Shown here: one piece after another, positions 31,852-34,308 of the stretch
Layout: each line of letters starts with the position of its first letter
Position numbering within the stretch: position 1 is the stretch's first letter
Source: a bacterium
GTDB lineage: Bacteria > UBA10199 > JACPAL01 > GCA-016699445
Length of the DNA: 39,774 nt
Reading direction: 5' to 3'
Assembly: GCA_035454885.1 (NCBI GenBank)
Contig: DATIGE010000067.1
Location: 1-39,774, forward strand
Position numbers and translations under genes: made by a program
Notes under the pieces: generated by a model
What the model was told of the DNA's origin: nothing
Databases searched by the model: none
The model's input: only the letters and a program-made list of their open reading frames with translations

Positions 31852-33213
31852 ATGTTCAACGGTTCACTGCCTTCGCAGGCCCTGCTCGCCCGCTATGCGG
31901 CCCTTCAATCCCAGGGCATCCTGAACCTCATGCGGAGCGGGGGCCTGGCGGAGATGCGGGCCTTGGAACCCCGCGTCACGCGGCTCTTTGAGGAGGGTCG
32001 CGTCGACCTCTTCATTCGCACCCGGGATCCCCAGAATCTCAGACCGATCCTAGCCCCCTTGCCTCGCGGCCTTTCCCTCCCGTCCTCGCTCACCCTGCGG
32101 GGCCGCTGGTCGGAAGAGCCTCGGATCGACGTGGGCGGTTCGCCCGGTCTCGCCTATGTGCATACGGACCGGATCGTCTGCACCGAGACGGACGTCTTGG
32201 AAGATGCACTCGAGGCCGCTTATCACCAACTCACCCGGGGGGCGGCGGCGATGATCTCCGCGGCCCCCGTCGAACGGATCGGGAGTCCCGTCCTGCTGGC
32301 CGCCCAAGGTGGCGCCTATGTGATCGCGGCGCGGGACCGCGGGGACACCCATTTGCTCGTGCAGATCCGCCCGCCGGTGACCACGTCCGGGGCCCTGCCG
32401 CCCGCCGTCGACCTGCCGATTGTGGACTCCAAGGGCGAGACGGCGCGGACCCGGATCCATCGGCGATTGGTCGAGAAATGGGGGCATTTGGCGCCGTCCG
32501 AAGTCCTGACCCTCATGGAGGCGGGTTCCGCCCATCCGGCCCTGCTTCGAAGCCTTTACCGTCTCGCCGAAATTGATCGGCATCCGCAGGCCGCCCGCGC
32601 CCTCATGTTTTTGGAGATGATCTGCCGGTCCGGTTTTGCGCGGGCGGGAGTGCGGTTTCCGCCGGAACGATGCCCGGTGGCCGTCGCCGGGTTCGGAGAG
32701 GAGTTCGGGACGATCCGGATCCTCTTGGACCACGGCTATCCGGTCATCGCCGTCGAGGATTTCGAGACCCCCGTGTCGTCCTCCGGACGGCCGGACATCA
32801 CCTTTGAAGCCGTGAGGGAGGCCTTCCGCGATCATCCCCATCGGGACCGGCTTCGGGTCTTCGATTTCCGCGACCCGGGGCTCCCGCGTGCCCAGGCCCA
32901 GGTCGTCCTCTTTGCCGCCGCCGTCGACGAGGCCTTGCCGACCTTGGTTCACCTGGTCAGGCCGGGCGGCGTCGTCGCCGTCACGGACGTGGGCCAACTG
33001 GGTTGGCGCCGCCAGAATTTTTTCGTGGATTCGGCCGACTCCTTCGTGCGCGCCGCCGGGCGCGAGCACGGCGCGCGTTTCGAGGAAGCGTATGGGGACA
33101 CCCTTCACGGACCGGGGGCTCTCCCCAGCCATTTCATCCACCCCCTGGGCCACACGGCCTATGTCGTCCGGCTCGCGCCCGAACCTTTTGACACTCAAAA
33201 AACCGGGTGCTAG
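31852..33213 (+). CDS. Protein of unknown function with Rossmann-like C-terminus
   Basis: I do not recognise this 453-residue protein. No signal peptide. Residues about 260-440 look like a SAM-methyltransferase-type Rossmann fold (VAVAGFGEEFGTIRILLDHG, then IAVEDFETP and LVRPGGVVAVTDVGQLG), but no family signature is certain. The N-terminal half is of unknown fold. It is divergent from rtcB, with the long stem-loop ending 7 bp before its ATG, and there is no Shine-Dalgarno. Its last codons contain the TTGACA -35 box of the tRNA-Asn promoter. Confidence 0.7.
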   Translation: MFNGSLPSQALLARYAALQSQGILNLMRSGGLAEMRALEPRVTRLFEEGRVDLFIRTRDPQNLRPILAPLPRGLSLPSSLTLRGRWSEEPRIDVGGSPGLAYVHTDRIVCTETDVLEDALEAAYHQLTRGAAAMISAAPVERIGSPVLLAAQGGAYVIAARDRGDTHLLVQIRPPVTTSGALPPAVDLPIVDSKGETARTRIHRRLVEKWGHLAPSEVLTLMEAGSAHPALLRSLYRLAEIDRHPQAARALMFLEMICRSGFARAGVRFPPERCPVAVAGFGEEFGTIRILLDHGYPVIAVEDFETPVSSSGRPDITFEAVREAFRDHPHRDRLRVFDFRDPGLPRAQAQVVLFAAAVDEALPTLVHLVRPGGVVAVTDVGQLGWRRQNFFVDSADSFVRAAGREHGARFEEAYGDTLHGPGALPSHFIHPLGHTAYVVRLAPEPFDTQKTGC

Positions 33214-33216
33214 GGT
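33188..33216 (+). promoter_or_regulatory. Ancestral tRNA-Asn promoter, now upstream of the GIY-YIG element
   Basis: TTGACA (33188-33193), a 17-nt spacer, and TAGGGT (33211-33216) preceded by an extended TGC make the best promoter in the window. It lies 28 bp before a copy of the tRNA-Asn 5' end (33244-33257), the distance expected for a tRNA gene, but the intact tRNA is about 300 bp further on. The promoter presumably served the tRNA before the insertion. Confidence 0.7.
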
Positions 33217-33243
33217 CCCGCCGCTTCGCTACAATGAAGCGCC

Positions 33244-33555
33244 ATTCCGGGGTAGCTTCCGCCAGAGGCGGACCAGCCTCCGGCTGGCAGTGGACGCGTA
33301 AAGTAAGATGTATAGTGTGTACGTTTTGAAGAGTTTGCGTCACGGCAAACGATATGTTGGTTATACGAGCAAAGCCCCTTCAGAAAGACTTGCTGAGCAC
33401 AACTCAGGTACTAACCAGTACACGCGGCAAAATGGGCCCTTCGAACTTGTTTATTTTGAGGAGTTCGGCGATAAAAAAGAGGCTTTAGTCAGAGAAAGAT
33501 TTTTGAAGTCCGGTCAAGGTAGGAAGTATCTTGATTCGATAATTCCGGGGTAGCT
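33244..33555 (+). mobile_element. Mini-element with GIY-YIG nuclease inserted at the 5' end of tRNA-Asn
   Basis: The 14-bp direct repeat ATTCCGGGGTAGCT occurs at 33244-33257 and 33542-33555; the right copy is the first 12 nt of tRNA-Asn plus two bases before it. Between the copies are 284 bp. The left end has two perfect adjacent hairpins, TCCGCC-AGA-GGCGGA (33258-33272) and CCAGCC-TCC-GGCTGG (33273-33287), followed by one small GIY-YIG nuclease gene. The element is more A/T-rich than its surroundings. Duplication of the tRNA 5' end has kept the tRNA intact while separating it from its promoter. Self-mobility is inference. Confidence 0.75.
33308..33553 (+). CDS. Small GIY-YIG family nuclease
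   Basis: This 81-residue protein is almost entirely one GIY-YIG nuclease domain (YhbQ/UPF0213-like). The signature is seen as VYVLKSL then RYVGYTS. An arginine and histidine follow (ERLAEHNSG), and the metal-binding glutamate is in VRERFLKSGQGRKYL. Such domains cut DNA and occur in homing endonucleases. The last codons (IIPG, stop TAG) lie inside the tRNA-Asn gene, so the reading frame ends 10 nt into the tRNA. Codon use is A/T-rich and unlike the neighbours, a sign of transfer. No Shine-Dalgarno is evident. Confidence 0.88.
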   Translation: MYSVYVLKSLRHGKRYVGYTSKAPSERLAEHNSGTNQYTRQNGPFELVYFEEFGDKKEALVRERFLKSGQGRKYLDSIIPG

Positions 33556-33615
33556 CAGTGGCAGAGTAGGTGACTGTTAATCACTTGGTCGTGGGTTCGA
33601 ATCCCACCCCCGGAG
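33544..33615 (+). tRNA. tRNA-Asn (anticodon GTT)
   Basis: Acceptor TCCGGGG/CCCCGGA, D-stem GCTC/GAGT, anticodon stem GGTGA/TCACT with loop CTGTTAA (anticodon GTT), T-arm GTGGG-TTCGAAT-CCCAC, discriminator G. CCA is not encoded (GCAT follows). All arms are intact. Its first 12 nt form the right copy of the direct repeat bounding the GIY-YIG element. Confidence 0.97.
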
Positions 33616-33698
33616 CATGAAGTTGACTTTCCGAGGGCAATATCGGATAAATTATCAACGATTACGATCATGTCCGCGTTAGGGTTATGCAGCATGGT

Positions 33699-33737
33699 GC
33701 TCATCTCCTCTTTAGCGGAGCCCAAACCTAAGGAGGT
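33699..33737 (+). promoter_or_regulatory. Possible structural switch in the leader of the RRM gene
   Basis: CTCC (33705-33708) can pair with GGAG at 33717-33720, supported by GCTC/GAGC, or with the Shine-Dalgarno GGAG at 33732-33735, supported by TTAG/CTAA. The two hairpins exclude each other, and only the second hides the ribosome site. This is a paper prediction. Confidence 0.3.
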
Positions 33738-33740
33738 TGC

Positions 33741-34079
33741 ATGGGCAAGAAACTTTACGTAGGGAATCTTCCGTTCACCATCACGGACGATCAGCTCCGC
33801 GATCACTTCGCCCAGGCAGGCACGGTCGAATCCGCACAGGTCATCATGGATCGCTTCTCGGGACGGAGCAAAGGCTTTGGTTTCGTCGAAATGTCCACGG
33901 ACGACGAGGCCGCCCAGGCCATCAGCCGTTTGAACGGCCAGGATTTCAACGGACGCGCCCTGACGGTCTCCGAGGCCCGTCCCAAGGAACCCCGTGAAGG
34001 CGGTTTCGGCGGCGGTGGCGGCGGCGGCGGTTACGGCGGCGGGGGTGGTGGGCGCGGCGGACGCCGCGACCGCTTCTAA
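33741..34079 (+). CDS. Glycine-rich RRM RNA-binding protein
   Basis: This 112-residue protein has one RNA-recognition motif (residues 3-80) with RNP2 KLYVGNLPF and RNP1 SKGFGFVEM, then a tail of glycine runs with Arg and Tyr (GGFGGGG..., ending RGGRRDRF). Such small RRM proteins in bacteria act as RNA chaperones and are often cold-induced. A very strong AAGGAGG lies 5 nt before the ATG. It is 125 bp downstream of tRNA-Asn and 10 bp upstream of infA, so the three may share a transcript. Confidence 0.95.
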   Translation: MGKKLYVGNLPFTITDDQLRDHFAQAGTVESAQVIMDRFSGRSKGFGFVEMSTDDEAAQAISRLNGQDFNGRALTVSEARPKEPREGGFGGGGGGGGYGGGGGGRGGRRDRF

Positions 34080-34089
34080 CTGAGGTTTC

Positions 34090-34308
34090 GTGTCCAAAGA
34101 CGATCTAGCCAAATTCGAAGGTAAGATCACCGACTCCACGGGCGGGGGCCAGTACATCGTGACCCTCGAGAACGGGGTCAAGGTCTCGACCAAGCTCTCC
34201 GGCAAGATGAAGCGTTTCAACATCCGCGTCATCGTCGGGGACCGCGTGACCGTCGGCGTCTCCCCCTACGATCCCACGCACGGTTTTATCGTTCACCGTC
34301 ATAGGTAA
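34090..34308 (+). CDS. infA: Translation initiation factor IF-1
   Basis: This 72-residue OB-fold protein binds the 30S A site during initiation. The sequence has FEGKITDSTGGGQYIVTLENG, then the basic SGKMKRFNIRVIVGDRV stretch and a final DPTHGFIVHRHR (quoted in part). It starts at a GTG with GAGG 4 nt upstream. The usual start is MAKDD/MSKED, matching VSKDD here. It follows the RRM gene by 10 bp, which makes a small translation/cold-adaptation cluster. It converges on an alpha/beta hydrolase gene with 18 bp between. Confidence 0.95.
   Translation: MSKDDLAKFEGKITDSTGGGQYIVTLENGVKVSTKLSGKMKRFNIRVIVGDRVTVGVSPYDPTHGFIVHRHR

Follow-up and report, generated by a model that had tools for sequence, protein, structure and literature searches.

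The small GIY-YIG gene beside tRNA-Asn in the DNA analysed here (the window, a stretch of 39,774 nucleotides) belongs to a family of free-standing GIY-YIG genes that is widespread and colonises tRNA genes, occasionally also tmRNA genes. The nuclease gene sits in a tRNA gene, between a complete copy and a truncated copy that holds the missing side, all on the same strand. The truncated copy usually carries palindromes that have been inserted without loss of tRNA bases, and some members of the family are present in one genome and absent from its close relatives. Mobility and tRNA targeting are well supported. The explanation we consider probable is a free-standing, SegB-like homing nuclease whose targets are tRNA genes, with one copy restored by partial duplication and cognate palindromes residing in the spare copy. 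A preliminary sequence-only reading had proposed that the unit is mobile and preserves one intact tRNA. With tRNA-linked homologues, partial copies on the far side, and empty sites in close relatives, this core idea holds in a broader form, that of a widespread, real, recurrent, and mobile-looking unit. No description of a tRNA-splitting unit of GIY-YIG gene and palindromes was found in the open-access literature.

The tRNA-Asn locus of the window

The intact tRNA-Asn(GTT) gene is located at 33544..33616 on the forward strand (ARAGORN; Rfam RF00005, 70.3 bits). The nuclease gene (33308..33553, forward strand) encodes an 81-aa GIY-YIG protein (PF01541, E = 1.5e-14) and, as was read from the sequence, has its stop codon within the tRNA. 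On the other side of the nuclease gene is a tRNA-Asn remnant in two pieces, both on the forward strand. The first, ATTCCGGGGTAGCT (33244..33257), consists of two leader bases and tRNA nucleotides 1-12, and the second, CAGTGG (33288..33293), corresponds to nucleotides 13-18, where the remnant ends. Between nucleotides 12 and 13 is a 30-bp double-hairpin insert (33258..33287, forward strand) made of two perfect 15-bp palindromes, TCCGCC-AGA-GGCGGA (33258-33272) and CCAGCC-TCC-GGCTGG (33273-33287).

These two tandem hairpins had been recognised correctly, and so had the 14-bp repeat that flanks the segment, an exact second copy of ATTCCGGGGTAGCT being found at 33542-33555. The repeat is, however, not the element boundary for which it was taken, but tRNA sequence that is cut by the palindrome after nucleotide 12 (AGCT^CAGTGG) and continues as CAGTGG. 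The true duplication is 20 bp long (ATTCCGGGGTAGCT plus CAGTGG, i.e., tRNA-Asn nucleotides 1-18 with two leader bases). With the 30-bp insert removed, the left copy reads ATTCCGGGGTAGCTCAGTGG and is identical to the 20 bases at 33542-33561. At this locus, an endonuclease ORF exists between a duplicated gene end and a functional gene. A second exact TCCGCCAGAGGCGGA in the genome (C4) was set aside as unrelated; its site looks by eye like a TPP riboswitch.

A candidate tRNA promoter, TTGACA-17-TAGGGT, can be read directly at 33188..33216 on the forward strand (-35 TTGACA at 33188-33193, a spacer of 17 bp, and -10 TAGGGT at 33211-33216). It is now followed by the remnant and the nuclease gene. 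The promoter had been described as strong. The sequence is present, with a -35 hexamer free of mismatches, but its -10 agrees with TATAAT in no more than 3/6 positions and, owing to this weak -10, a promoter scanner does not call it. Its role as the tRNA promoter is plausible from sequence comparison, because locus L041 has TTGACA-17-TAGGAC in the same position with the same spacing. L041 also shares the insertion point and the last remnant base of the window, and the two proteins are 67-68% identical. The end of a 453-aa upstream ORF (31852-33213), for which no Pfam match was found, overlaps the candidate promoter. At positions 1-83 of the window, the extreme end of the contig, there is a tRNA-Leu(gag) gene.

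An Rfam scan of 32800-34200 found neither an intron nor another RNA beside tRNA-Asn, and a group I intron homing unit was rejected on this ground. Group I introns interrupt tRNA-Asn in two genomes of the window's order (G001, locus L286, and G002, locus L285). About 50 bp downstream of the intron-bearing tRNA-Asn of G001, there is a distant GIY-YIG gene (55 bits).

The nuclease family and its tRNA genes

The Pfam domain spans residues 1-72 of the window protein. The features of the GIY-YIG superfamily (the GIY and YIG motifs and the conserved Arg and Glu) are present, and in an alignment of 22 members Y5, Y16, G18, and R27 are invariant and E63 is nearly so. The nuclease profile matches the structures of UPF0213, SLX1, and I-TevI. 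The nearest solved relatives include the structure-specific GIY-YIG enzyme SLX1; this likeness is a lead for hairpin recognition, not evidence. Homing GIY-YIG enzymes usually carry an extra DNA-binding part. The 81-aa protein has no separate DNA-binding region beyond the catalytic domain, which counts against the homing reading. No NCBIfam family was found for the protein, and the nuclease has no match in 50,697 phage records or in plasmid records.

One genome scan yielded 19 relatives in Omnitrophota, Patescibacteria-type phyla, and Bacteroidota, and almost every one adjoins a tRNA gene and has an interrupted tRNA piece on the opposite side. In a Patescibacteria-type phylum (that of locus L004), 259 of 380 sampled genomes have profile matches at E <= 1e-10, up to 14 per genome, although matches at this threshold may take in distant GIY-YIG relatives. 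Several genomes from the phylum of the window also have high-scoring members, and members linked to tRNA genes exist in at least three phyla.

A tRNA gene is found within 100 bp of 60/82 members scoring at least 95 bits, compared with 0/24 distant GIY-YIG proteins (40-65 bits), and the linkage drops as the protein score falls. GIY-YIG genes free of any tRNA association, which would speak against the sequence-only reading, are confined to these distant subfamilies. Two apparent exceptions to the linkage (L130 and L158) are tRNAs holding group I introns, where the nuclease gene lies outside the intron of the adjoining tRNA, and three further ones are tmRNA genes. In L156, L179, and L193, the family member comes after a tmRNA gene of the same strand, and tmRNA may thus be another target. 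The nuclease gene and the RNA gene are on the same strand in all 89 tRNA- or tmRNA-linked members collected (89/89), with the RNA gene downstream in 67 and upstream in 22. These members are spread over about 20 isotypes or tmRNA. Inheritance accounts for part of the isotype distribution (57 changes on the nuclease tree vs. a shuffled minimum of 63-64), and in one genome (G274) six of the seven copies are located at six different tRNA genes.

A partial tRNA copy is detectable at 59 of the 84 loci tested, clearly above shuffles, and none was detectable at the other 25. With the tRNA downstream, the remnant starts at the tRNA 5' end in 45/49 cases. With the tRNA upstream, it ends at the tRNA 3' end in 10/10. 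The units had been thought to target tRNA genes at their 5' ends, with a copy of the 5' end to the left of the hairpins. Targeting and restoration of tRNA genes are borne out, but they are not confined to 5' ends. Remnants of at least 25 nt (n = 46) are 94.1% identical to the intact copy, and 21 of them are perfect. This 5'/3' symmetry and near-identity are what insertion into a tRNA gene with one side restored predicts. Since the arrangement of the window recurs at scores of independent loci, it is beyond chance.

The same geometry bears on two other explanations. The interrupted tRNA piece could be a regulatory leader of the nuclease gene in an arrangement that is not mobile, as the gene and the tRNA invariably share a strand and the remnant is at the place of a would-be 5' leader in most loci. 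This is very improbable, however, given the downstream 3' remnants of the mirror loci, the empty sites among close relatives, and the wide variation in remnant length, isotype, and insertion point between loci. Although tRNA genes are classic integration sites, the probability that the tRNA is the att site of an integrase-type island is negligible: there is no integrase, the gene encodes the 81-aa GIY-YIG protein, and the point of insertion within the tRNA varies, and most remnants are 5' ones. An integrase-type tRNA island, with an integrase gene and an att site at the tRNA end, was accordingly rejected for this unit.

Empty sites are found in Algoriphagus. Of the 29 loci examined at the same tRNA-Arg(CCT) gene, most lack the nuclease and have one tRNA without interruption, and the occupied loci are L016, L252 (decayed), L256, L267, L274, and L279. 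In L269, the left flank is 90.75% identical to that of L267 and the promoter region is joined directly to the tRNA. L275 matches L267 on both sides of a single intact tRNA, although remains of an older, decayed piece may persist there. L272 has kept a hairpin-bearing remnant and lost the nuclease. Note that these empty sites, of the kind the sequence-only reading looked for in a close relative, come from another phylum than the window. For the window locus itself, no empty site was found in a synteny comparison with same-order genomes, only an uninterrupted tRNA-Asn in an order-level relative (G004). The window's upstream gene is common to G003 at 30% identity but is not beside a tRNA there, and the window's neighbour genes were not found beside L041.

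A further explanation is a mobile endonuclease ORF of the Allomyces/Glomus type, in which a foreign gene end is imported in place of the native one, and the native end, once displaced, becomes the remnant. The geometry is the same as that of fungal mitochondrial mORFs (PMC3630166), and in L016 the two tRNA-Arg copies differ, the remnant resembling the native tRNA of many relatives. We regard it as unlikely for the family, because local duplication or conversion fits the near-identical remnants better and because the intact copy of L019 matches the tRNA of the empty relative L251. L016 was dropped as proof of a foreign tRNA end: both tRNA types are found in empty relatives, and L019 contradicts it.

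Multiple pieces are seen at some loci. In L117 (G064, 998-1100), an intact tRNA-Thr and a GIY gene come after two nearly identical 5' pieces of tRNA-Thr in tandem, both of which carry a double hairpin; this looks like repeated amplification. L111 and L113 (Bacteroidota, G070) have tandem copies of a hairpin-bearing tRNA-Ser piece and GIY gene. In L267 (G497, 2065-2620), the nuclease gene and intact tRNA sit between a hairpin-bearing tRNA-Arg 5' remnant on the left and a hairpin-bearing 3' remnant on the right.

Palindromes in the remnants and elsewhere in the genomes

The remnants are broken by 46 insertions in 38 loci with zero tRNA bases lost. A perfect stem of at least 5 is found in 41 of these insertions, and their commonest length is 30 bp, followed by 20. 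On the remnant side, a strict hairpin lies no more than 120 bp away at 55/89 loci, compared with 4.8 expected by shuffling and with 6/88 (at 500 bp) and 4/83 control stretches. Several remnants hold two or more palindromes, and some (e.g., L132) have no hairpin.

The tandem hairpins noticed at first are one type among several clade-specific palindromes, which are dispersed in genomes too. Three types were scored: the 30-bp double GCC/GGC hairpin, CCTGCC..GGCAGG, and CCCGCCC..GGGCGGG. On the nuclease tree, whose deep support is modest, hairpin type changes twice, which is the minimum, vs. a shuffled minimum of 5; 32 rows were typed in this test, the strict regular expression leaving 56/89 untyped. 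L001 and L045, both from the window's phylum, differ in nuclease clade and hairpin type, and so do L267 and L016, from one genus and one tRNA gene. Judged from these sequence comparisons, in which host lineage is only partly separated, hairpin type appears to follow the nuclease clade and not only the host.

Palindromes also exist in other intergenic regions and inside ORFs, distant from tRNA and GIY genes. The double hairpins, two adjacent short hairpins inserted without target duplication, are dispersed mostly in this way in genomes such as G061, which has 44 copies. Their flanks have T at -2 in 76% and a pyrimidine at -1 in 85% (read from either side). This TY^R preference resembles the TTC^GAA, GTT^GG, and GCT^ sites in tRNA remnants. 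Across the 380 genomes, with host kinship ignored, the mean number of double hairpins is 2.73 in genomes with strong family hits, 0.82 in those with weak hits, and 0.20 in those with none; for CCTGCCTGCCGGCAGGCAGG, the corresponding means are 1.85, 0.62, and 0.05. In L099 and L102 (G061), 30-bp (10 codons) double hairpins lie within ORFs and may be in frame, recalling Rickettsia palindromic elements.

The palindromes could also be independent host repeats piling up in spare tRNA pieces because no other tRNA-like sequence escapes selection, the tRNA copies themselves arising by plain SegB-like homing or break-induced tandem duplication. The palindromes away from tRNA and GIY genes, the remnants with more than one of them, the tandem arrays, and mitochondrial double-hairpin repeats without a known nuclease (PMC2800124) all agree with this. 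We nevertheless find it doubtful, since hairpin type tracks the nuclease clade, hairpins are concentrated beside the gene, and genomes without the nuclease are nearly devoid of both palindrome families.

Proposed process and comparison with known systems

In the SegB-like homing explanation, the proposed process is homing with partial gene duplication. The nuclease would cleave tRNA-gene DNA in lineages without the element, and recombinational repair would bring in both the nuclease gene and a second copy of part of the tRNA, leaving one tRNA functional. Expression of the nuclease is probably driven from the tRNA promoter. Clade-cognate palindromes would enter at sites that are broken or preferred (T-Y ahead of the junction, a purine behind it). 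Their entry into the spare copy and elsewhere in the genome would break up the spare copy, while the functional tRNA copy would be kept by selection. The palindromes may enter as a cognate cassette, which is preferred, or as a passive repeat. This explanation is supported by the linkage decay, the same-strand rule, the remnant symmetry, the zero-loss inserts, and the empty sites, and also by the hairpin enrichment, the match between clade and hairpin, the genome palindrome counts, the TY^R preference, and the tandem arrays. Hairpin-free remnants and the loci without a remnant count against it. The restored intact tRNA would itself seem cleavable, which also counts against homing.

A stronger form is that the nuclease and palindromes are one mobile system, in which each GIY-YIG clade inserts or spreads its own short double-hairpin cassette, in the spare tRNA first and then in the genome, in the manner of REPIN-RAYT but with a hydrolytic GIY-YIG enzyme. 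We put this forward tentatively, as possible rather than probable. In REPIN-RAYT systems, short paired palindromes are dispersed in the genome and a cognate small nuclease gene is flanked by them. Both systems have dispersed short paired palindromes and a cognate small nuclease gene; here the protein is GIY-YIG, not a Y1 HUH (TnpA-REP) transposase, and the gene is linked to tRNA genes. The unit would explain the small GIY-YIG ORFs beside tRNA genes and some of the scattered short palindromes in these genomes. The nuclease is also a concrete candidate enzyme for a long-open question, how ultra-short hairpin elements move without flanking duplications.

Mitochondrial double-hairpin or repetitive hairpin-forming elements, as presented in PMC2800124 and the Allomyces work it cites, are likewise ultra-short, dispersed in intergenic regions and genes, and lack a flanking duplication. 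The hairpins described here differ in their tie to a nuclease clade and in their concentration within tRNA remnants; the likeness is anatomical and homology is not claimed. GIY-YIG-encoding insertions are reported in CPR rRNA genes (PMC11270868). According to the available text of that report, the same bacteria thus have GIY-YIG genes within genes for structural RNA and outside introns there too, but the insertions concern rRNA only, and hairpins or gene-end duplication are not mentioned in that text. In the fungal mitochondrial mORFs (Allomyces atp6 and Glomus atp6, atp9, cox2, and nad3; PMC3630166), an endonuclease ORF in a gene is accompanied by a duplicated end that keeps one copy functional and by a displaced remnant. 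The units here target tRNA genes, duplicate either end, have mostly near-identical copies, and carry palindromes in the remnant.

By analogy, SegB may be regarded as the nearest tested precedent. This enzyme, one of the free-standing GIY-YIG homing endonucleases of T-even phages, is encoded beside tRNA genes of many isotypes and cuts within them, and it drives tandem amplification of tRNA and nuclease (PMC13096335, citing Brok-Volchanskaya 2008 on SegB). Its motif, RAWTSGAAC, is the complement of the T-loop sequence GTTCSAWTY, where several of the palindromes described here sit. The window gene also stands alone, without intron or intein, the family is located at tRNA genes, and tandem arrays are found here too. 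The empty sites are consistent with cleavage of tRNA-gene DNA and movement by repair, which we infer for this family. Unlike SegB, the family is bacterial chromosomal and was not found in phage or plasmid records, its protein is domain-only (81 aa), and it is accompanied by truncated copies of tRNA genes that clade-specific palindromes interrupt.
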